Positions 34,221-44,972 of a stretch of 64,000 nt of DNA are shown piece after piece. The notes below the pieces were generated by a model, which searched no databases, was not told the origin of the DNA, and saw only the letters and a program-made list of their open reading frames with translations. The DNA comes from Aliidongia dinghuensis (lineage in GTDB: Bacteria; Pseudomonadota; Alphaproteobacteria; ATCC43930; CGMCC-115725), in the NCBI RefSeq assembly GCF_014643535.1, contig NZ_BMJQ01000015.1:124001-188000 (forward strand), in the 5' to 3' direction. Every line of letters starts with the position of its first letter. The first letter of the stretch is position 1. The translations under genes and the position numbers were made by a program.

Positions 34221-34649
34221 TCAGATCAGGTTGACCGCCACATCGATGTTGCCGCGCGTGGCCTTCGAATAGGGGCAGATCTCGTGCGCGGCATGCACGA
34301 GATCGAGTGCCGCGTCGCGCGCGACGCCCGGCAGGCTGACGTCGAGGCGCGCCTGCAGGAAATAGGCGCTGCCGGTCTTGCCCAGGTCGACCTCGATGTC
34401 GACGGCGAGATCGGCCGGCAACTTTACCTTCCGCTCAGCAGCGGCGAGCTCGATCGCACCCAGGAAACAGGCTGACCAGGCGCCCGCGAACAATTGCTCG
34501 GCGGTCGGATGGGCCTCGACGTCCGCGAACCGGTATTCCGGATGGCTGCCCTTGCTGGGCGACGAGAGCTCAAGGTTGACGCGGCTGTTGTGGCCGCTGG
34601 CCGTCGTGTGGGTCTTGCCGGTGAGGAGGACGGTTTCGATCTTGGACAT
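34221..34649 (-). CDS. ohr: Organic hydroperoxide resistance protein, OsmC/Ohr family
   Basis: The 142-residue protein has the two redox cysteines of thiol peroxidases of this family, Cys61 (AWSACFLGAIEL) and Cys125 (EICPYSKATRGN), plus the ELSSPSKGSHPEYRFADVEA segment typical of Ohr. It reduces organic peroxides in the cytoplasm with lipoylated protein as electron donor in known members. It is divergent from its regulator ohrR, and the gap carries three operator-like sites. Confidence 0.95.
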   Translation of the reverse strand: MSKIETVLLTGKTHTTASGHNSRVNLELSSPSKGSHPEYRFADVEAHPTAEQLFAGAWSACFLGAIELAAAERKVKLPADLAVDIEVDLGKTGSAYFLQARLDVSLPGVARDAALDLVHAAHEICPYSKATRGNIDVAVNLI

Positions 34650-34676
34650 GGTGGGCTCCTTGCTGAAGGGTCTTAA

Positions 34677-34761
34677 AATCGGATCCGATTAGATCGGATG
34701 CGATGTTATTTATGGCACACAAACCCACATGTCAAGCCTTCCGATTTAATCGGATGCGATT
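34677..34761. promoter_or_regulatory. Three OhrR operator-like sites in the ohr-ohrR gap
   Basis: The core ATCGGAT(C/G)CGAT occurs at 34678-34689, 34693-34704 and 34749-34760. The first copy is embedded in a perfect 14-bp palindrome, AATCGGATCCGATT. The first two are 15 bp apart centre to centre, next to ohr; the third lies 46 bases before the ohrR ATG. Placement between the divergent genes fits OhrR control of both. Confidence 0.8.
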
Positions 34762-34805
34762 TATATAGGTGTGAGACGCTCGACGTTGCGTTCACGAGGC
34801 TGACG

Positions 34806-35270
34806 ATGAATCCAAAGACCAGGCCGCCCGCCGCCCCGGCCCTGCCCAAGCTGGCCGATTTCCTCTGTTTTGCGGTCTATTCGGCCAACCTCGCCTTCGG
34901 CCGGGCCTATAAGCCGATCCTGGACGAGCTCGGCCTGACCTACACGCAGTACATCGCGATCGTGGCACTGTGGGAGGAGGACGAGCAGACCGTAAGCGGC
35001 CTCGGCCAGAAGATGTTCCTGGAGTCGAACACGCTGACGCCGATCCTGAAGAAGCTCGAACAGATGGGCTACCTTACCCGCCGGCGCGCCCAAGAGGATG
35101 AGCGGCAGGTCGTGGTCAGCCTGACCGACGCCGGCCGCCGCGTGCGCGAGCGGATCCAGACCGACACGCTGAACGAACAGACCGGCCTCACGCCCGACGA
35201 GTTCGCGACGCTCCAGAAAGCCGTCGCCAAGCTGCGCGACAATCTGCTGACAGCGGTGGAGGGGAAGTGA
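34806..35270 (+). CDS. ohrR: MarR-family organic peroxide sensor OhrR (one-cysteine type)
   Basis: The 154-residue regulator has the OhrR mark DFLCFAVYSANLAFGRAYKP with the peroxide-sensing Cys21. It also has a MarR winged helix (LTYTQYIAIVALW; LTPILKKLEQMGYLTR; DERQVVVSLTDAG). No other cysteine is present, so it is the one-Cys type as in Bacillus, which needs a small thiol to complete oxidation. It represses ohr until oxidised. GAGG precedes the ATG. A hairpin follows the gene. Confidence 0.93.
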   Translation: MNPKTRPPAAPALPKLADFLCFAVYSANLAFGRAYKPILDELGLTYTQYIAIVALWEEDEQTVSGLGQKMFLESNTLTPILKKLEQMGYLTRRRAQEDERQVVVSLTDAGRRVRERIQTDTLNEQTGLTPDEFATLQKAVAKLRDNLLTAVEGK

Positions 35271-35322: not shown

Positions 35323-36489
35323 CTAGAACCCGACCTCCTCCACCATCTTCGAGAGCACCGTGTGCGCATCGAAGAATTCGTTCGCGACCTCGATGGCGCC
35401 GATCGAGTGCTGGGCGTAGTCGGTGTTGATGCGGGCGACGGCGTCGCGCACTTCTTCGAGCGAGGAGAACGGGAACAGGCCCTTGCCGGTCTCGATGAAT
35501 TTCGAGAAGCCGGTCTCCTGCGTGATGACCGGCCGGCCGGCGGCCAGGTAGCAGACCGAGCGGTCGGAGAACCAGCCGCTGTTGGGGCGCACATAGATGT
35601 CCTTCGCCACCGTGAACTCGCCGCGCGAGGTCACGACGAAGTCGCGATAGGACTGCATGTCTGCCGAGACCGGGACCGGATCGACGATGTCCCAGCCGCC
35701 GTCCCTGACCCGTTCGGCCACGTCCGGCGTCGGCGGCGTCATGGCGAGGCGGAACGGCTGCATCACCGCGCGCGGCAGGTCGAGGTATTTCAGGAAATTG
35801 ACGTGCTTCGACCAGCGATAGGTCTCGCCGCCGACCTCGATGTCCTTGCCCTTGTTCTCCCAGGTCGCGATCGAGGAATAGAACGGCCCGGCGGCGACGC
35901 AACCGGCGTCCCACAGGTCGACCAGCACCGGCGGCCGGGTCTTCCGCCAGTCGAACTTGACGATCGGCACCTTGCAATCCTCGTTGCCGAGGTTTTCGCC
36001 ATAGGTGAAATGGTGCGTGTGCAGGCCCAGGTACTCGAGCGACTCGGCGTTGCCCGAGGCGACCTTGGCCTGCTCGAACACCGGGTCGGTGTCGACGAAG
36101 ATGCGGACCGGGCATTTCAGATGCTCTTCCCGGAGCCGCGTGGCGCCGCACAGGTTGAAGAGCGCCGATGCCTCGCCGTAGAGCGCCATCAGCCGCTCCT
36201 TGGAGATGCCGTGCACCTCGTCCTTGGCGGCGTCCCAATAGGCCCAGCGGTCGCCCAGGTCGAACCGCTCCATCATCGTCTTCACGAACTGGACGTTGTA
36301 GCTGCAGTCCTCGACGATCGAGAATTGCCGCGGATCGTACGGGTTGGCGCCCGAATCCTCGATGTACCAGACGTCGTAGCCCAAGCGGCGCAGCCCCAGC
36401 ACATAGTGGAGCGCCTGCCAGGCGATACCGGCCAGCGGAATCTGTCCGGCGAGATGCAGGACGAGAACGGTCTTCTTGTTAGACGCCAA
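35323..36489 (-). CDS. Glycosyltransferase-like protein of the polysaccharide locus
   Basis: The 388-residue protein begins KKTVLVLHLAGQIPLAGIAW and has GLRRLGYDVWYIEDSG in its first Rossmann half. A late RPNSGWFSDRSVCYLAAGRP with TQETGFSKF matches the donor-binding end of GT-B glycosyltransferases (CgeB/group-1 type). Specific family and sugar are not evident. Its ATG at 36489 lies 11 bases inside the end of the ABC exporter gene, so the two are coupled. Confidence 0.7.
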   Translation of the reverse strand: MASNKKTVLVLHLAGQIPLAGIAWQALHYVLGLRRLGYDVWYIEDSGANPYDPRQFSIVEDCSYNVQFVKTMMERFDLGDRWAYWDAAKDEVHGISKERLMALYGEASALFNLCGATRLREEHLKCPVRIFVDTDPVFEQAKVASGNAESLEYLGLHTHHFTYGENLGNEDCKVPIVKFDWRKTRPPVLVDLWDAGCVAAGPFYSSIATWENKGKDIEVGGETYRWSKHVNFLKYLDLPRAVMQPFRLAMTPPTPDVAERVRDGGWDIVDPVPVSADMQSYRDFVVTSRGEFTVAKDIYVRPNSGWFSDRSVCYLAAGRPVITQETGFSKFIETGKGLFPFSSLEEVRDAVARINTDYAQHSIGAIEVANEFFDAHTVLSKMVEEVGF

Positions 36490-38284
36490 CGTGCGTCTCC
36501 TCGGTGAGATCGAACTGGGTATCGTAGAGCTGCCGGAACAGCCCGTTGCTGCGGTGCATCAAATCATCGAAACGCCCGGCCTCGGCAATCACTCCATCCT
36601 TGAGGACGAGAATCACATCGGCCCGGCGCACGGTCGAGAGCCGGTGCGCAATGACGAAGGTGGTGCGGCCCTGGGTCAAGCGCCGGATGCCGGCCATGAC
36701 GAGCGCCTCCGTTTCGGCGTCGAGCGCCGAGGTCGGCTCGTCCAGAATCAGGATCGGCGCGTCGCGCAAGAGGGCACGCGCGATGGTGAGCCGCTGCTTC
36801 TCGCCCTCGGAGAAGGTCGCCCCGCCCTCGCCCACGAGCGTGTCGTAGCCCTCGGGCAGGGTCTCGATCAGGCGGTCGATTTCGGCGAGCCGCGCCGCCG
36901 CTCGGATCTCGTCCAGGCTCGCCTCGGGCCGGCCATAGGCGATGTTCTCGCGCACGCTCAAGGGGAAGACGAGCGGCGGCTGCAGCACCATCGCGACCTG
37001 GCGGCGGAGCGAGCGGATCTCGTAGTCGCGCGCATCGACGCCGTCGATCAGGATCGACCCCAAGCTCGGATCGAAGAAGCGTGGCACGAGGCCCAGGAGC
37101 GTCGACTTGCCGGCGCCGGTGGCGCCGACCAGCGCCACGGTCTGGCCCGGCTCGACCGCAAGCGTGATGCCGCGCAGCACCGACTGGTCTGCCCGATAGC
37201 GGAACTGGACGTCGCGCCATTCGACCCGGCCCTCGGCACCCTTCGCCGGAAAAACCCGGGAGCCGTCCTTGAGATCGGCCTCGGTCTCGAGGATCTCGAA
37301 GCAGCGGTGGGCGCCGACCCGGGCGCCCGCGATCAGGCCCCAGCTCTGGGTAATCTGGTTCACGGGTCCATAGAGCTGGCCGAGATATGTGGTGAACACG
37401 AGCAGCGTGCCGATCGACAGCGCGCCGGAGAGTACCTCGTGCGCGCCGACATAGATGACGAGAGCCGTGCCGAGCGCCATCAGGGTTCCGATCACCGCGG
37501 TATAGAGCGTCTGCCAAGAGTAGAGCTTGAGATGCGCCCGGAGTGCGGCGCCGCTCACAGCCATGAAGCGGCGATGCTCGTCCTCTTCCTTGGTGAAGGC
37601 CTGGACGAGCTTGATCGAGCCCAGGCCCCAGTGTGCCACCGAATAGACCAGGCTGTCGTTGTCGCGCGCCACCGTCGCGATGGCGGCGATCTTGCGGTTG
37701 AAGAGGCCGATCAGCACGAACAGGATCGGCACGATGGTGAGCGAGACGAGCGTCAGCTCCAGATCGATCGGCGCCAGCACGCAGATCATGCCGATCAGGA
37801 GCACGAATGCCTGCAGGATCGGCAGCGCGCCGTTCATGATCATGGTCTGGACCGCATAGCTGTCGGCGGTCACCCGCATCATGAGGTCGCCGACGCGCTG
37901 GCGGCTGTGATAGGCCAAGGACAGGCGCTGCAGATGGGCATAGAGCCGGGCGCGCAGGTCGCTCACCATGCGCTGGCCAAGCCAGATCGCCATGGCGTTG
38001 TAGACGACGGTGAGGCCGCCGCTCAGCAGATATATGACGACCAGCGCCGTGACCGCGGCCGCGACCAGGCCCGACGCCGACCACCCGGCGATGCCGGGGG
38101 CAAGCCAGGTGAGCGGCCCGGCCGCGATCGGCTGGCCGCTCAAGGCATTGTCGACGACGATCTTGAGCGGCCAGGGCTTCAAGAGCTCGAAGCCCAGGAG
38201 GACGAACACCTGGACGAGCGCCAGCGCCAGGAGCTGCGTATAAGGCCGCACATAGCCCGATATTTTCCAGGCAAGCCCGGTCAC
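36479..38284 (-). CDS. ABC exporter, fused permease/ATPase (MsbA-like)
   Basis: The 601-residue half-transporter has about six membrane helices in residues 15-310 and an ATPase domain in 340-580. The latter has Walker A GATGAGKST, Walker B ILILDEPTSALD and H-loop FVIAHRLST. The signature motif is FSEGEKQR in place of LSGGQ, a known variant in this exporter subgroup. Within a glycan locus it probably flips a lipid-linked glycan or exports a lipid. Its start overlaps the frame of the upstream fusion gene. Confidence 0.9.
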   Translation of the reverse strand: MTGLAWKISGYVRPYTQLLALALVQVFVLLGFELLKPWPLKIVVDNALSGQPIAAGPLTWLAPGIAGWSASGLVAAAVTALVVIYLLSGGLTVVYNAMAIWLGQRMVSDLRARLYAHLQRLSLAYHSRQRVGDLMMRVTADSYAVQTMIMNGALPILQAFVLLIGMICVLAPIDLELTLVSLTIVPILFVLIGLFNRKIAAIATVARDNDSLVYSVAHWGLGSIKLVQAFTKEEDEHRRFMAVSGAALRAHLKLYSWQTLYTAVIGTLMALGTALVIYVGAHEVLSGALSIGTLLVFTTYLGQLYGPVNQITQSWGLIAGARVGAHRCFEILETEADLKDGSRVFPAKGAEGRVEWRDVQFRYRADQSVLRGITLAVEPGQTVALVGATGAGKSTLLGLVPRFFDPSLGSILIDGVDARDYEIRSLRRQVAMVLQPPLVFPLSVRENIAYGRPEASLDEIRAAARLAEIDRLIETLPEGYDTLVGEGGATFSEGEKQRLTIARALLRDAPILILDEPTSALDAETEALVMAGIRRLTQGRTTFVIAHRLSTVRRADVILVLKDGVIAEAGRFDDLMHRSNGLFRQLYDTQFDLTEETHVGV

Positions 38285-38300: not shown

Positions 38301-40934
38301 TCAGCCGGCCTTCCGGCCGGTCATAGGCGTGAGCTTCGCCTTGCGCGCGACCTCGTCGATCACCCGGTTCATGATCCGGCCGAAGCGCCAGGTCTGGTCG
38401 GCGATATAGCCGAAATTCGCGAGGCCGGCGGCGGCGATCAGGAAGGCCGGCACCGGCAGGCCCACGACGAGCGCCGCCGCCGTGGCGCCGGCGTAGCAGC
38501 GCAGCACGAAGGACGCGAGGCGCGACAGGCGCATGGCGCAGCGCACCCTCAGCACACGCTTCTCGCCGCCGTGGTTCTCGGTCACCGCCATGACGAAGGC
38601 CCGGCTCCAGAGGCCGCGCGCGATCTTCAGGTCCCAGTCGCTCCAGCCCTCGTCGGTCTGCAGGAAATATTTGCGCGGGATGAGGAACTCCATGAGGCCC
38701 GCGAGCAGCACTTCCTTTTCTTCGTAGTTCTGGCCCCAGTATGAGAAGAACAGCGCGCGGTTGCGCCAATCGATCTTGGCCGGCGCCAGCGGGCCATCGG
38801 CCTCGCCCGGCAGAGTGTCCGCCGCATTCGATTCCTTGACCCGCCACTTGATCCGGGTCCAGCCGCGCAGGATCGGCCCCAGATAGATCAGGCACGCGAT
38901 GAGCGCCCGCGCCTTCAAGCTGCGGAAGCGCGGGTCGATCGGCGCCTTCAAGGCGCCCGAGACGCACATGGCCCAGGTCGTGAGCAACGGCACCCACAAG
39001 AGCAGCCACCAGCCGCCGGCGACGAGGCCGGCGAACGCCAGCACGATCGCGACGATATTCCATTCGAACGTCAACGGCAGGAAAGCGGCGAGCGACGAGG
39101 GCGGCTCGTACATGGTCTGGAACAGGCCGCGGCCGAACACGCCGGAATAGATCACCGGCCGGCGCGAGAGCAGCAGCGAGGCTGAAAGGTCGCCGTAGAT
39201 GCGGCCCAGCCATTTCGCCTGGCCGAACAGGTTGAAGCGCAGCGGATGCTTCGAATAGACGAGCGCCTCGGCCTTGCCGTAGCCCTTCTGCTGGTTGAGG
39301 TAAGCCTCGACCGTGTTGCGCCGGAAGTGCCAGACCACGGCCGCCGGCGCGAAACCGATCGTGTAGCCGGCATTCTGAAAGCGCCAGCAGATGTCGACAT
39401 CGTCGCCGGCCGCGCGATAGACCGGGTCGAAGCCGCCCAGTTGCAGCAGCACGTCGCGCCGGAACGCCATGTTGCAGCCGGCGATGTGCTCCGCCACTTC
39501 GTCCGACACCAGCACATGGGTCGGCCCGCCCGGCGAGACCGCGACCGCAGCCGGCACGAGATCGTCCTCGGGCGGCGGGAAATTGGGCCCGCCGACCGCG
39601 GCCAGCCCCTTGTGCTGCATCTTGGCGACGAGATAGGTCAGCCAGTCCTTGTCGGCGACGCAGTCCGAGTCGGTATAGGCCACGATCTCGCCGGTCGCCA
39701 TCTCGGCGCCGACGTTGCGCGCGACCGACAGGCCCTTGTTCGGCTGGCTGATGATCTTGCAATAGTCGTAGCGCTGCGAGATTTCGAGCGTCCGGTCGGT
39801 CGAGCCGTCGTTGACGACGATGACCTCGTAGTCCGGATAGTTGAGGTGCTCGAGCGAGGCCAGGCACTGGTCCATGGTCCGATCGGCGTTGTAGGCGCAG
39901 ACCACGACCGAGACGCGCGGGTAATGCGGCAGCGCCGGCGGCAGCGGGCCCTGGTAATTGGCCGCGACCGCCTCGAACGCCGGCTTCTTCCGCCGGTCCC
40001 GGTCGACGATGCCGAATTCCCAGTCTTCGATCAGGTGGCCGCCGGTGAACCATTCATCGGTCCAGGCGAAGACGCAGGTGCCGGCGCAGCCGAGCTCGAA
40101 CGCGGTCCGCACCTGCCAGCCGATCGTCTCGGCCTGGTGGTCCTTACCCTCGCGCATCGAGTCCATGCCGAACTCGGTCAGCACCAGCGGCCGGTCGACC
40201 GCGAGATTATGGAGCCGCGCGATATAGCGCCGGAACGCCGATTCGTTGTGCAGATAGACGTTGAAGCACAGGAAATCGGTAAAATCGACCGTCAGGTATT
40301 CGGTCGACGGGAAATTCGCATAGGAGACGAGGCCGGTCGGATCATAGGCCTTCACCTCCTTGACCAGATCGACCAGGAAGGCGCGCACCTTGTCCGGCCC
40401 GTGCCAGCGGATCATGTCGGGCGGGATCTCGTTGCCGATCATGTAGGCGAGGAGCGCCGGATGGCGCCCGAGCGAGCGCACGCCCGCCATCACCATGCGG
40501 CGGATCTCGGCCTTGGTCGCCTCGCTGTCGAGGAAGGTGATGTGTTGCGACCAAGGAATGCCGGCGAGCACGCGCAAACCATGTTCGGCGGCGATGTCCA
40601 GGAGCCAGACCGGCGGCACGGTGAAGACGCGGAGCGTGTTGACGCCGGCCTCGGCCATGAGCGCCATGTCCTGGCGCACGCGCTCGGCCGGTGGGAATTG
40701 CGTGCCGTCGGCGCCGACGGGGAACGGCCCGTAGGTCACCCCCTTGAGGAAGAACTTGGCGTCGCCGGTGAAGAAGAACTTGCCCTCGACCCGGACCCGC
40801 TCGAGCGCCGCCGCCCGGAGCGTCTTCGGCCGCGGCTCGACCAGCCGCAACGCCGGCGCCGACGCGTTCGATGCCTCCCGCGCTGTGCCGTCCTCAGCCC
40901 GCACGACGATCGCGTCTTCTTCGTTCAATGCCAT
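38301..40934 (-). CDS. Glycoside-hydrolase-like / family 2 glycosyltransferase fusion with membrane segments
   Basis: The 877-residue protein joins two catalytic folds. Residues about 50-325 form a (beta/alpha)8 domain like GH2/GH5 beta-glycosidases, with an acid/base candidate Glu169 (YMIGNEIP) and nucleophile candidate Glu254 (VLTEFGMD). From about 340 a GT2 domain starts (RVSVVVCAYNADRTM) with NDGSTD at 375-380, TDSD at 421-424 and the acceptor motif DDVDICWRF. Membrane helices follow at about 635-680 and 825-860. It should transfer sugars at the inner membrane, perhaps trimming or gripping the growing chain with the hydrolase-like domain. It is first in an apparent operon with the ABC exporter and the glycosyltransferase. 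Confidence 0.85.
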   Translation of the reverse strand: MALNEEDAIVVRAEDGTAREASNASAPALRLVEPRPKTLRAAALERVRVEGKFFFTGDAKFFLKGVTYGPFPVGADGTQFPPAERVRQDMALMAEAGVNTLRVFTVPPVWLLDIAAEHGLRVLAGIPWSQHITFLDSEATKAEIRRMVMAGVRSLGRHPALLAYMIGNEIPPDMIRWHGPDKVRAFLVDLVKEVKAYDPTGLVSYANFPSTEYLTVDFTDFLCFNVYLHNESAFRRYIARLHNLAVDRPLVLTEFGMDSMREGKDHQAETIGWQVRTAFELGCAGTCVFAWTDEWFTGGHLIEDWEFGIVDRDRRKKPAFEAVAANYQGPLPPALPHYPRVSVVVCAYNADRTMDQCLASLEHLNYPDYEVIVVNDGSTDRTLEISQRYDYCKIISQPNKGLSVARNVGAEMATGEIVAYTDSDCVADKDWLTYLVAKMQHKGLAAVGGPNFPPPEDDLVPAAVAVSPGGPTHVLVSDEVAEHIAGCNMAFRRDVLLQLGGFDPVYRAAGDDVDICWRFQNAGYTIGFAPAAVVWHFRRNTVEAYLNQQKGYGKAEALVYSKHPLRFNLFGQAKWLGRIYGDLSASLLLSRRPVIYSGVFGRGLFQTMYEPPSSLAAFLPLTFEWNIVAIVLAFAGLVAGGWWLLLWVPLLTTWAMCVSGALKAPIDPRFRSLKARALIACLIYLGPILRGWTRIKWRVKESNAADTLPGEADGPLAPAKIDWRNRALFFSYWGQNYEEKEVLLAGLMEFLIPRKYFLQTDEGWSDWDLKIARGLWSRAFVMAVTENHGGEKRVLRVRCAMRLSRLASFVLRCYAGATAAALVVGLPVPAFLIAAAGLANFGYIADQTWRFGRIMNRVIDEVARKAKLTPMTGRKAG

Positions 40935-41102
40935 TCTCGTCCCGACCCCGAAGCCAAATGTGCGCCCGCATTCCCCGGTTCCCCGACCGGCACCCAGATA
41001 CCGGTGTGAAAGAGCCTTTCCGACACCGGATTGTCAAATACCGAACGGTTTCTTCCCCGGCCGTTATTCCCGCGCGAGCGAAAGTCCCGCTGTTTTCCTG
41101 TC

Positions 41103-41195
41103 GTCATGGCCGGGCTTGACCCGGCCATCCACGCCTATCGGCCAGCCGCCGTTCGGCGGAAAAACGTGGATCCCCGGGTCAAGCCCGGGGATGAC
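41103..41195. repeat. Inverted pair of 31-base palindromic repeats (GGGCTTGACCC core)
   Basis: Left arm 41103-41133 and right arm 41165-41195 are inverted copies matching at 27 of 31 positions. Each also folds alone around CGGGCTTGACCCG. The four differences are two compensating pairs: GGCC..GGCC in the left copy, CCCC..GGGG in the right. The unit lies between the 3' end of galE and the start of the fusion gene, both on the minus strand. Confidence 0.8.
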
Positions 41196-41225
41196 GGATG
41201 AGTGGGTGATCTGCCGTCTTTCTCC

Positions 41226-42203
41226 CTACTTCCCCCGCTGATGCCAGGCCCAGGCGGTGCGGATGATGCTGTCGATGTCGGACATCACCGGCTTCCAGCC
41301 GAGCAGCTGGTTGGCTTTCGCGGGATTGGCGACGAGCTCCGGCGGGTCGCCGGCCCGGCGGCCGACCTCGCGCCGCGGCACTTTGCACCCGGTCACGCGC
41401 TCGACCGCGTCGATCACCTCGCGCACGGAATTGCCGGTGCCGGTGCCGAGATTGAGCTGGGTCGTCTCCCCGCCGTCGAACAGATAGGCGAGCGCCTTCA
41501 CATGAGCGTCGGCCAGGTCCTGGACATGGATGTAGTCGCGGATGGCAGTGCCGTCCGGCGTCGGGTAGTCGGTGCCGTAGACGTCGATCGCAGCACGCCG
41601 GCCCGACGCGGCGTCGAGGATGAGCGGGATCAGATGGGTTTCCGGATCGTGCTCCTCGCCGATCTGGCCTTCTGGATCGGCGCCGCAGGCGTTGAAATAG
41701 CGCAGCGAGACCGAGCGGATGCCGTGAGCCGGCCCGTACCAATGGAGCGCCCGCTCGATCATGAGCTTGGTTTCGCCATAGGGGTTGATCGGCCGCTGCA
41801 GCGTCTCCTCGGTGATCGGCATCCGGTCGGGCATGCCATAGGTCGCACAAGTCGACGAGAACACGATCTGCTTGACGCCGGTCGCGCGCATGGCGTCGAG
41901 GATCGACAGCGACCCCATCACGTTGTTGTGAAAATAGATTTCCGGCTTGGTCACGGATTCGCCGACATAGGCGAAGGCGGCGAAATGGACGATGGCCTCG
42001 ATCGCCTCGTCCCGGATCACCTGCTCGAGCTTGGCAGTGTCGAGGATGTCGCCCTCGACGAACGGGCCCCATTGGACCGCGTGGCGATGGCCGTAGACCA
42101 GGTTGTCGTAGGTCACGGGGCGATAGCCGGCCCGCGCCAGGGCTTTGGCGGTGTGACTGCCGATATAGCCGGCGCCGCCGGTCACCAGGATGTTTTTCGC
42201 CAT
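41226..42203 (-). CDS. galE: UDP-glucose 4-epimerase
   Basis: The 325-residue extended SDR has NAD loop GGAGYIGSHT, HFAAFAYVGES, the SSTCATYG serine and YGETK catalytic Tyr/Lys, then RYFNACGADPEG. It interconverts UDP-glucose and UDP-galactose (or the N-acetyl forms). The open frame runs further upstream, but homology starts at ATG 42203. It lies ahead of the fusion glycosyltransferase on the same strand, separated by the inverted repeat, and is divergent from ugd. Confidence 0.95.
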   Translation of the reverse strand: MAKNILVTGGAGYIGSHTAKALARAGYRPVTYDNLVYGHRHAVQWGPFVEGDILDTAKLEQVIRDEAIEAIVHFAAFAYVGESVTKPEIYFHNNVMGSLSILDAMRATGVKQIVFSSTCATYGMPDRMPITEETLQRPINPYGETKLMIERALHWYGPAHGIRSVSLRYFNACGADPEGQIGEEHDPETHLIPLILDAASGRRAAIDVYGTDYPTPDGTAIRDYIHVQDLADAHVKALAYLFDGGETTQLNLGTGTGNSVREVIDAVERVTGCKVPRREVGRRAGDPPELVANPAKANQLLGWKPVMSDIDSIIRTAWAWHQRGK

Positions 42204-42618
42204 CAGTCTCGTCGATCCTCTGGAAGGATTGCGTCCCGCGCCGCCGATCCGTCCCGACCGACAACGGGCCAACCGGCCGGTTTCTTCCCAACCGGGCCGA
42301 GCAGGGCCGAGAGGCTCTTTCTCACGATCGCCCGCCCCGTCGCCAGCCCTTTCGATGCCGTCTGAAAATGTCACGCTGCAGTGCGGAATTTTCCCGGAGG
42401 TGGCAGCGTTGTTGGCCGGTACCCCGCGCTCCTGCCCGGGCCCGACCAGCCCCGGTCGGGCCTCTGCCGGTTGTTTTTCCGGTGGAATGCTCAGCGGATT
42501 TTGCTTGGCGGGCGGGTGTGTGATGGGGCATGTCGGAGCGGGTGTCGGCGATTGGCCTCCGGGGCGGTTGGCCCGGAGGCGGGTGGCCGGGTGCCCGGGT
42601 TAGCGCGAGGAGAATGAG
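42204..42618. other. Divergent intergenic region between galE and ugd
   Basis: This 415-base stretch holds no coding frame I can support. It must contain both promoters. The clearest structure is the hairpin at 42439-42462, in what would be the ugd leader. Confidence 0.6.
42439..42462 (+). other. Leader hairpin upstream of ugd
   Basis: GGCCCGACC and GGTCGGGCC form a perfect 9-bp stem with loop AGCCCC. A TTGTTTTT run follows about 9 bases later. It could be a terminator or attenuator in the ugd leader 156 bases before the gene, or the end of an unseen short transcript. Confidence 0.5.
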
Positions 42619-43956
42619 ATGCGGATTGCGGTCATCGGGACGGGGTATGTCGGTCTCGTCTCTGGGGCTTGCTTCTCGGAGTTCGGCACGTCGGTGGTGT
42701 GCGTCGACAAGGACGCCTCCAAGATCGAGCGGATCAATCGGGGCGAGATGCCGATCTACGAGCCGGGCCTGGACGATCTGGTGGCGCGCAACGTGAAGGA
42801 GGGGCGGCTCGAGTTCTCGACGGACTTGGCGGCGTCGGTCAAGGGCGTGGACGCGGTGTTCATCGCGGTCGGCACGCCGTCCCGGCGCGGCGACGGCCAT
42901 GCCGATCTCTCCTATGTGTTCGCGGCGGCCGAGGAGATCGCCAAGGCGCTCGACGGCTATGCCGCGATCGTGACCAAGTCGACGGTGCCGGTCGGCACGG
43001 GCCGCAAGGTCGCCGAAGTGGTGATGAAGGCGCGGCCGGACCTGGAGCTGGGCCGCGACTTCGACGTGGTGTCGAACCCGGAGTTCCTGCGCGAAGGCTC
43101 GGCGATCGAGGATTTCATGCGGCCGGACCGCGTCGTGGTCGGCACGCTCGACGGGGCGACCCGCGGGCGCGAGGTGATGCGGGCGCTCTACCGGCCGCTG
43201 GCCTTGATCGAGAAGCCGGTGCTCTTTACGGCACTCGAGACGGCCGAGGTCATCAAGTACGCCGCCAACTGCTTCCTTGCGACCAAGATCACCTTCATCA
43301 ACGAGATGGCCAACCTGTGCGAGCAGGTCGGCGCCGACGTGCAGGACGTCGCCAAGGGCATCGGCCTCGACAACCGCATCGGCAACAAGTTCCTGCATGC
43401 CGGCCCCGGCTACGGCGGCTCGTGCTTCCCGAAGGACTGCCTGGCACTGGTCAAGACCGCGCGCGATGCCGGTGCCCCGATCCGCATCGTCGAGAGCGTC
43501 ATCGAGGTGAACGAGGGCCGCAAGGTCGACATGGCCCGGCGCATCGTCGATGCGCTCGGCGGCGACGCCAAGGGCAAGCGGGTCGGCCTGTTGGGCCTGA
43601 CGTTCAAGCCCAATACCGACGACATGCGCGACAGCCCGAGCCTCGCCATCGTGCCGGCGCTCCTGGAAGCCGGCGCCAGCATCCGCGCCTACGACCCGGA
43701 GGGCATGCACGAAGCACAGAAGCTCCTCTCCGGCATCGAATACGCCGCGGACGCCTACGACGCCTTGAAGGACGCCGACGTGCTCGTGTTCTGCACCGAG
43801 TGGAACCAGTTCCGCTCGCTCGACTGGACCCGCGTCCGCCAGGCCATGCCCGGCCGCATCATCGTCGACCTGCGCAACATCTATGACCCCACCCGCGTCG
43901 CTCGCGAAGGCTTCACCTATCATTCCATCGGGCGGAAGGCCGCAATCCCGGCATAA
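42619..43956 (+). CDS. ugd: UDP-glucose 6-dehydrogenase
   Basis: The 445-residue enzyme has the N-terminal NAD fold ([14 protein letters not shown]), the catalytic cysteine Cys269 in GGSCFPKD, an [15 protein letters not shown] central helix and the C-terminal [16 protein letters not shown] motif. It oxidises UDP-glucose twice to UDP-glucuronate. GAGGAGAATGAG precedes the ATG. The decarboxylase gene using its product follows after 44 bases. Confidence 0.97.

Positions 43957-44000: not shown

Positions 44001-44966
<966 letters not shown>

Positions 44967-44972
<6 letters not shown>

Follow-up and report, generated by a model that had tools for sequence, protein, structure and literature searches.

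In a stretch of 64,000 nucleotides from the alphaproteobacterium Aliidongia dinghuensis (positions 124,001 to 188,000 of contig NZ_BMJQ01000015.1, assembly GCF_014643535.1; hereafter the window) we find a gene that joins, in one chain of 877 residues, a TIM barrel of glycosidase clan GH-A, a GT2 glycosyltransferase domain, membrane helices and a C-terminal region. The same fusion recurs in other genomes in a conserved gene order beside an ATP-binding cassette (ABC) exporter, and both candidate catalytic glutamates of the modelled barrel are kept in all 19 aligned sequences. How the length and shape of exported glycans are set is often unclear since the polymerase and the processing enzymes are separate proteins; here the two are parts of one chain.

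A glycosidase barrel and a GT2 domain in one reading frame

The open reading frame (ORF) at 38301-40934 on the minus strand contains no internal stop, and the original prediction, made from the sequence letters, of an 877-residue chain with a TIM barrel ahead of a GT2 domain and membrane helices is confirmed by the reading frame, by Pfam and by hydropathy. The GT2 model PF00535 matches residues 342-497 with 111.4 bits, while on the barrel Glyco_hydro_2_C (PF02836) scores 26.4 bits over residues 82-261, against a cut-off of 21, and Glyco_hydro_72 scores 25.5 bits, slightly below its cut-off of 25.9. The GT2 assignment agrees with what is expected of a GT-A fold enzyme with a DxD motif, the motif TDSD being invariant in our alignment and GT2-type glycosyltransferases heading the fold search. 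The barrel ends at residue 330 and the GT2 domain starts near 339, so the linker between them is short. Because the same fusion stands in one frame in many other genomes, it is not an accident of assembly.

Hydropathy predicts membrane segments in the window protein at about residues 627-662 and at 806-844, and no hydrophobic membrane segment before residue 627. Among the 19 aligned sequences peaks ahead of the GT2 domain appear in two (L010, residues 259-277, and L021, residues 82-102), both weak and within the barrel, and L013 has one weak peak within the GT2 domain (438-456). No Pfam match above cut-off was obtained for the C-terminal region, where Phage_TAC_11 (E 0.044) was the sole sub-threshold match, and none to GH94 or PF10091 anywhere in the protein. 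Many near-invariant residues, for example W764, W767 and D768, were seen in the alpha/beta segment of this region.

The alignment used throughout holds 19 sequences, the window's own and those of loci from a scan of genome contigs. Of the 24 loci from that scan, 21 hold the fusion, whole or cut, and three match GT2 only. Left out were L024 and L025, which are cut by contig ends and keep only the GT2 and C-terminal part, L027, the frame of which is broken near its start in the assembly concerned, and the GT2-only matches L030-L032; L023, which ends after residue 615, was retained.

The active site of the barrel

Modelled alone, the barrel is predicted well, with a mean predicted local distance difference test score (pLDDT) of 87.5 and a predicted template modelling score (pTM) of 0.88. 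Enzymes of clan GH-A are expected to carry the acid/base glutamate at strand 4 and the nucleophile glutamate at strand 7, and this is the pattern found, with N168-E169 and E254 kept in 19 of 19 sequences: E169, in the motif GNE, is model residue 125, three residues past strand 117-122, and E254, in the motif TEFG, is model residue 210, inside strand 206-211. Both glutamates had been named in the original prediction, together with a structure prediction as the check and with the statement that residues lying outside a barrel pocket, or varying among homologues, would count against it; in the model they sit at strands 4 and 7, and neither varies among the 19 sequences.

Ten more barrel positions, among them R102, N168, N225, Y227 and W291, are invariant in the same 19 sequences, these ten having been picked after the alignment was seen, whereas E169 and E254 were named beforehand. 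Counting the window's own sequence among the 19, 108 of the 286 barrel positions are invariant, and when the two faces of the barrel are assigned from the DSSP string these comprise 42 of 68 positions in the catalytic-face loops, 17 of 46 on the opposite face and 49 of 172 in the remainder. The catalytic-face loops are the most conserved part of the barrel; the p-values for catalytic versus opposite face (Fisher, 0.013; Mann-Whitney on entropy, 0.0003) are indicative only, because related sequences are not independent. We regard E169 and E254 as the candidate catalytic pair of a retaining clan GH-A enzyme.

What the barrel resembles

A profile built from the 19 barrels ranks LaGH157 of Labilibaculum antarcticum first among solved sequences (75.6 bits, E 3.2e-20, with 72.5 bits for its mutant); at an identity of about 20% it leads every GH2 match by about 28 bits, and it is the one GH157 enzyme among the solved matches. 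The runner-up is a GH2 beta-galacturonidase at 47.7 bits, while 1,3-beta-glucanosyltransferases (at most 33.8 bits) and GH158 (23.3 bits) match more weakly. As given by the fold-search titles, from which the family name GH157 and the ligands are taken, the LaGH157 structures contain laminaribiose (9g5g) and, in the E224A mutant, laminaritriose (9g4n), and in the printed alignment E254 pairs with Ala 224 of that mutant. We found no paper on LaGH157 in the open-licence literature. GH2 enzymes carry sugar-binding and immunoglobulin-like domains N-terminal to the barrel; here 44 residues precede it, and Pfam gave no match to such domains at E<=0.01.

Distribution of the fusion

The genome of A. 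dinghuensis has one full-length copy, its other 11 matches covering GT2 parts only. At E<=1e-60 the protein has matches in 35 of 99 relatives, its own genome included. The survey of homologues proposed with the original prediction returned a match to the fusion in 33 of the 39 genomes of the family, with some matches cut by contig ends (G028 and G013 in two pieces, G032 a piece without the barrel part); the six family genomes that lack it (G003, G008, G012, G017, G022 and G027) belong to two genera. In the class sample the barrel is found at E<=1e-8 in 14 of 385 genomes from six families, the own one included, always in frames of at least 858 residues except in G067, where it is split over two contigs, and the loci taken from barrel-positive genomes match the fusion beyond the barrel. 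The C-terminal region is found at E<=1e-4 in 7 of 190 class genomes, each of them also barrel-positive. Since these matches coincide, the barrel, the GT2 domain and the C-terminal region travel together in these samples.

In the phylum sample, the full profile at E<=1e-40 matches 2 of 398 genomes, the own one and G479, the latter over GT2 only. Distant barrel matches in six other genomes of that sample (7 of 398 with the own one, E<=1e-6) cover only part of the barrel, and are probably other glycosidases. Of the plasmid records 24 match the protein, none across more than 80% of its length; Aminobacter and Rhizobium matches that seemed to reach into the barrel were opened, and the Aminobacter upstream gene, considered as one half of a split fusion, was rejected because it encodes a TackOD1-domain protein and not a glycoside hydrolase.

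The records of L010 and L016 are titled Rhizobium sp. Q54, that of L020 Klebsiella pneumoniae and that of L029 Asaia bogorensis. We suspect errors in the names, because in the alignment L016 and L029 resemble the rows from metagenome-assembled genomes L017, L018 and L022, and L020 resembles L028. The latter, a metagenome-assembled genome titled Deltaproteobacteria, has the fusion with upstream gene clusters as in L020 and no GalE, which could reflect transfer or mis-binning. We did not find the fusion described in the open-licence literature on GH/GT2 fusions or on GH157, by which its absence from print is not proven.

The gene neighbourhood

The exporter and the uridine diphosphate (UDP)-sugar genes that the original prediction had placed beside the fusion are present, as an ABC exporter, the UDP-glucose 4-epimerase GalE and a nucleotide-sugar dehydrogenase; beyond the dehydrogenase lies a gene for a nucleoside diphosphate (NDP)-sugar epimerase/dehydratase family protein (Table 1).

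Table 1. Features of the fusion gene, its protein and the neighbouring genes, in window positions
Feature	Positions	Strand	Basis or remark
Fusion gene (clan GH-A barrel, GT2, membrane helices, C-terminal region)	38301..40934	-	single 877-residue ORF
Variable N-terminal tail, residues 1-44	40803..40934	-	low confidence; without hydrophobic segment
TIM barrel, GH157/GH2-like, residues 45-330	39945..40802	-	Pfam, profile search, barrel model, fold search
E169, candidate acid/base (GNE), just past barrel strand 4	40428..40430	-	invariant in 19/19; position from model
E254, candidate nucleophile (TEFG), barrel strand 7	40173..40175	-	invariant in 19/19; opposite LaGH157 E224
GT2 domain, residues 339-560	39255..39920	-	PF00535; fold matches to GT2-type enzymes
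TDSD motif, residues 421-424	39663..39674	-	invariant in alignment
Helices, residues 623-704 (hydrophobic about 627-662)	38823..39068	-	hydropathy, full-length model
Alpha/beta segment, residues 720-803	38526..38777	-	no Pfam match above cut-off
C-terminal helices, residues 805-865 (hydrophobic about 806-844)	38340..38522	-	hydropathy, full-length model
MsbA-like ABC exporter	36479..38284	-	starts 16 bp past the fusion gene; overlaps the next gene
Glycosyltransferase-like protein	35323..36489	-	overlaps the ABC gene; Glyco_trans_1_2 19.9 bits, below cut-off 25
GalE, UDP-glucose 4-epimerase	41226..42374	-	434.1 bits, cut-off 262.3; likely start near 42203
Nucleotide-sugar dehydrogenase, likely UDP-glucose type	42619..43956	+ (divergent)	476.4 bits, cut-off 189.8
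NDP-sugar epimerase/dehydratase family protein	44001..44972	+	Pfam and NCBIfam matches

The order GalE-fusion-ABC is conserved across loci. The ABC gene lies downstream of the fusion in all 19 loci long enough to judge, L021 and L023 stopping short of that point. GalE lies upstream in 17 of 19; L020 and L028 are without it, and L024 and L025, which start within the fusion, do not count. Of the 21 loci L009-L029, not all of them long enough to judge, 9 have the divergent dehydrogenase and 8 the last gene of the table, the product of which we take to be UDP-glucuronate decarboxylase-like; neither was found in the available flanks of more distant loci such as L015, L016, L018, L020, L022, L028 and L029. 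The gene after the ABC gene is glycosyltransferase-like in the window, and likewise in L009, L024, L027, L020 and L028. Against the NCBIfam models for ChvA/NdvA glucan exporters the ABC protein scores below the cut-offs, both for chvA (286.7 against 585.4 bits) and for PRK13657 (369.5 against 733); its top NCBIfam score, 437.6 bits for MsbA_rel, is also below the cut-off, 780.4.

Inspection by eye shows a pair of small hairpin-like palindromes between galE and the fusion gene (41080-41200) that resemble repetitive extragenic palindromic elements; with up to three mismatches allowed, a sequence of 25 bases covering one of them has no second copy in the window. Beyond the glycosyltransferase-like gene, at 34221-35270, there is a possible divergent pair of Ohr/OsmC-like and MarR-like genes, judged from the look of the sequence.

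Relation to GH94 and OpgG genes

Cyclic beta-1,2-glucan synthase (Cgs) carries a GH94 domain, and we compared its distribution with that of the fusion. A count of PF10091, present in 10 of 61 genomes, hinted at an anticorrelation with Cgs, which was then checked with the GH94 model PF17167. This matches 6 of the 53 genomes searched (G003, G012, G022, G016, G039 and G041), in four cases within a frame of 2,703-2,975 residues, and has no match in the own genome. Within the family GH94 is found in 3 of 6 fusion-lacking versus 1 of 33 fusion-bearing genomes (Fisher p 0.008, not corrected for descent); in a neighbouring family that lacks the fusion 2 of 4 genomes have it, and none of 10 fusion carriers from the rest of the class does. 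The two distributions are possibly complementary. Genes of the OpgG (MdoG) type were found, among the 37 family genomes searched, in five fusion-bearing genomes and one fusion-lacking genome. The idea that the fusion fills a gap in osmoregulated glucans is unsupported, the own genome already having four OpgG-type genes.

Discussion

We propose that the protein is a bifunctional glycan synthase of the inner membrane, the GT2 domain of which would extend a beta-linked chain from a cytoplasmic nucleotide sugar. The fused barrel would be a retaining catalyst that uses E169 as acid/base and E254 as nucleophile; working on the GT2 side of the membrane, it would break and re-form linkages of the nascent chain and may thereby release, size, branch or cyclise it. 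The finished oligo- or polysaccharide would leave by way of the adjacent MsbA-like ABC exporter. A GT2 domain must face the nucleotide-sugar pool; because it needs nucleotide sugar it should face the cytoplasm, and as no membrane segment separates it from the barrel, the barrel should be cytoplasmic too. Given this placement and the resemblance to Cgs, we favour a scheme in which the barrel processes the nascent chain and the ABC protein then exports it, and put this at somewhat short of an even chance. What the analysis shows is the fusion, the barrel fold as modelled, the conservation of the catalytic residues and the gene order; the cytoplasmic side, action of the barrel on the protein's own product, transglycosylation over hydrolysis, the glucan nature of that product and its export by this particular ABC protein are the inferred components of the scheme. 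Its details deserve separate grades: beta-1,3-glucan, to which the sequence match to GH157 points, is the likeliest chain, yet as an identification more apt to prove wrong than right, and that the chain is cyclised is unlikely. We also consider it doubtful, if attractive, that the fusion represents a third, independently built synthase of cyclic or size-defined beta-glucans, in which a cytoplasmic GH157-like transglycosidase joined directly to a GT2 polymerase, with dedicated ABC export, replaces Cgs in several alphaproteobacterial lineages. The original prediction had spoken of editing, chain-length control or transglycosylation during polysaccharide synthesis, which fits the anatomy and has functional precedents in Cgs and in the Pseudomonas GH17-GT2 proteins, the activity itself being what we infer; to that reading we add that the barrel should lie in the cytoplasm and that, by sequence, the solved barrel closest to it is that of a GH157 enzyme.

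Several observations weigh against processing of a nascent glucan. By fold the barrel is as near to GH2 beta-glucuronidases as to GH157, the two tying at a Z of about 30 (6ncy, Z 30.3, root-mean-square deviation 2.6 over 272 residues; 9g4n, Z 30.2, 2.5 over 283), and the top Foldseek row is a beta-glucuronidase; given this tie the link to glucan depends on a resemblance in sequence of about 20% identity. In the GT2 domain the motif Q(Q/R)xRW of processive BcsA-like synthases is replaced at residues 571-575 by a degenerate GQ(A/S)(K/R)W, in which G571, Q572 and W575 are invariant and the first Q is absent, and the best NCBIfam match of this part is MftF, at 160.9 bits and well below the cut-off of 280. 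The conserved GalE hints at galactose in the product, although the window GalE is the only copy in its genome at E<=1e-40 and may be a housekeeping gene. The full-length model (pLDDT 68.7, pTM 0.63) is too weak to place the two active sites relative to each other. The inverse relation to GH94 is a small one that descent confounds: the family genomes without the fusion, six in all, come from two genera, some genomes are incomplete and G016 has both genes. The own genome has, with four OpgG-type genes (on C1, C11 and two on C12), the most among 61 genomes searched.

The galactose hint leads to what is, at a chance we put on the low side, the most serious competitor, in which the GT2 domain and the neighbouring glycosyltransferase would build a heteropolysaccharide or glycolipid containing galactose, glucuronate or pentose, and the barrel would trim or transfer a non-glucan chain. 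The frequencies of GalE, the dehydrogenase and the decarboxylase-like gene near the fusion point this way, as does a barrel fold equally similar to GH2 beta-glucuronidases and beta-galacturonidases; the absence of the latter two genes from the available flanks of the more distant loci, and the lead of GH157 over GH2 by sequence, argue against it. It is improbable that the barrel is a plain hydrolase that makes no new bonds and cuts mis-made or stalled chains, as in proofreading, or caps their length. Such a role would agree with the kept catalytic residues and with the hydrolytic activity reported for the characterised GH157 enzyme (PMC10229575), but a hydrolase permanently coupled to a synthase that faces the same side would presumably undo synthesis unless tightly gated, and glucanosyltransferases are also among the barrel's matches.

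An inactive barrel serving as a carbohydrate-binding or scaffolding module is very improbable, given that both glutamates and the further checked positions are invariant and that conservation is highest in the catalytic-face loops. Least probable of all, and hardly to be expected, is a barrel translocated to act in the periplasm, since the window protein has no membrane segment from residue 1 to the GT2 domain, which must itself stay with the nucleotide sugars. Such an arrangement has been modelled for the Pseudomonas GH17-GT2 proteins (PMC10237404).

Since the two domains are joined, very probably face the same side of the membrane and are encoded next to a likely exporter, two point mutants could test processing in cis. 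Were the barrel a transglycosidase, the protein would be a compact tool for making defined beta-glucans.

Comparison with known enzymes and synthases

The barrel aligns with GH157 endo-beta-1,3-glucanases (LaGH157; BcellWH2_01931) in fold, in the paired glutamates and in the motifs N-x-Y-x-H and F-x-x-x-D-x-W-x-x-G-G; it differs in sharing only about 20% identity with them. The fungal cell-surface enzymes GH72/Gas, which transglycosylate beta-1,3-glucan, are similar in the N-terminal half of the barrel, although the Pfam score is just below the cut-off. MftF-type GT2 enzymes, the best NCBIfam match of the GT2 part, are not known to have a GH barrel, and their equivalog cut-off is not reached. 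The characterised Bacteroides GH157 enzyme is a predicted cell-surface degradative enzyme that cuts linear beta-1,3-glucan, with undetectable activity on pustulan (PMC10229575).

Two synthases are closer in overall design. The pseudomonad GH17-GT2 proteins 'Orphan'/NdvB likewise have a TIM-barrel glycosidase domain before a GT2 domain in one membrane protein and are proposed to make and cyclise beta-1,3-glucan (PMC10237404). There the barrel belongs to GH17, is modelled in the periplasm and is separated from the GT2 domain by membrane helices (PMC10237404), whereas the present fusion has a GH157/GH2-like barrel with no match to GH17 (PF00332) at E<=0.01, a short linker with no membrane helices before the hydrophobic segment at 627, and an MsbA-like ABC gene after it. 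The transporter of the glucan made by Cgs is likewise of the ABC type. Cgs (ChvB) shares with the fusion the combination of a glycosyltransferase with a glycan-processing GH-type domain, all soluble domains on the cytoplasmic side and a separate transporter, but the fusion matches neither GH94 nor PF10091. The GT84, putative cyclase and GH94 phosphorylase domains of Cgs are all cytoplasmic, and the GH94 part controls length, which its authors think suits the glucan to a transporter seemingly preferring smaller glucans (PMC10901819). Set beside these systems, the fusion belongs with the glycan synthases already known to combine GH and GT domains, as a further variant and not as a kind of its own.

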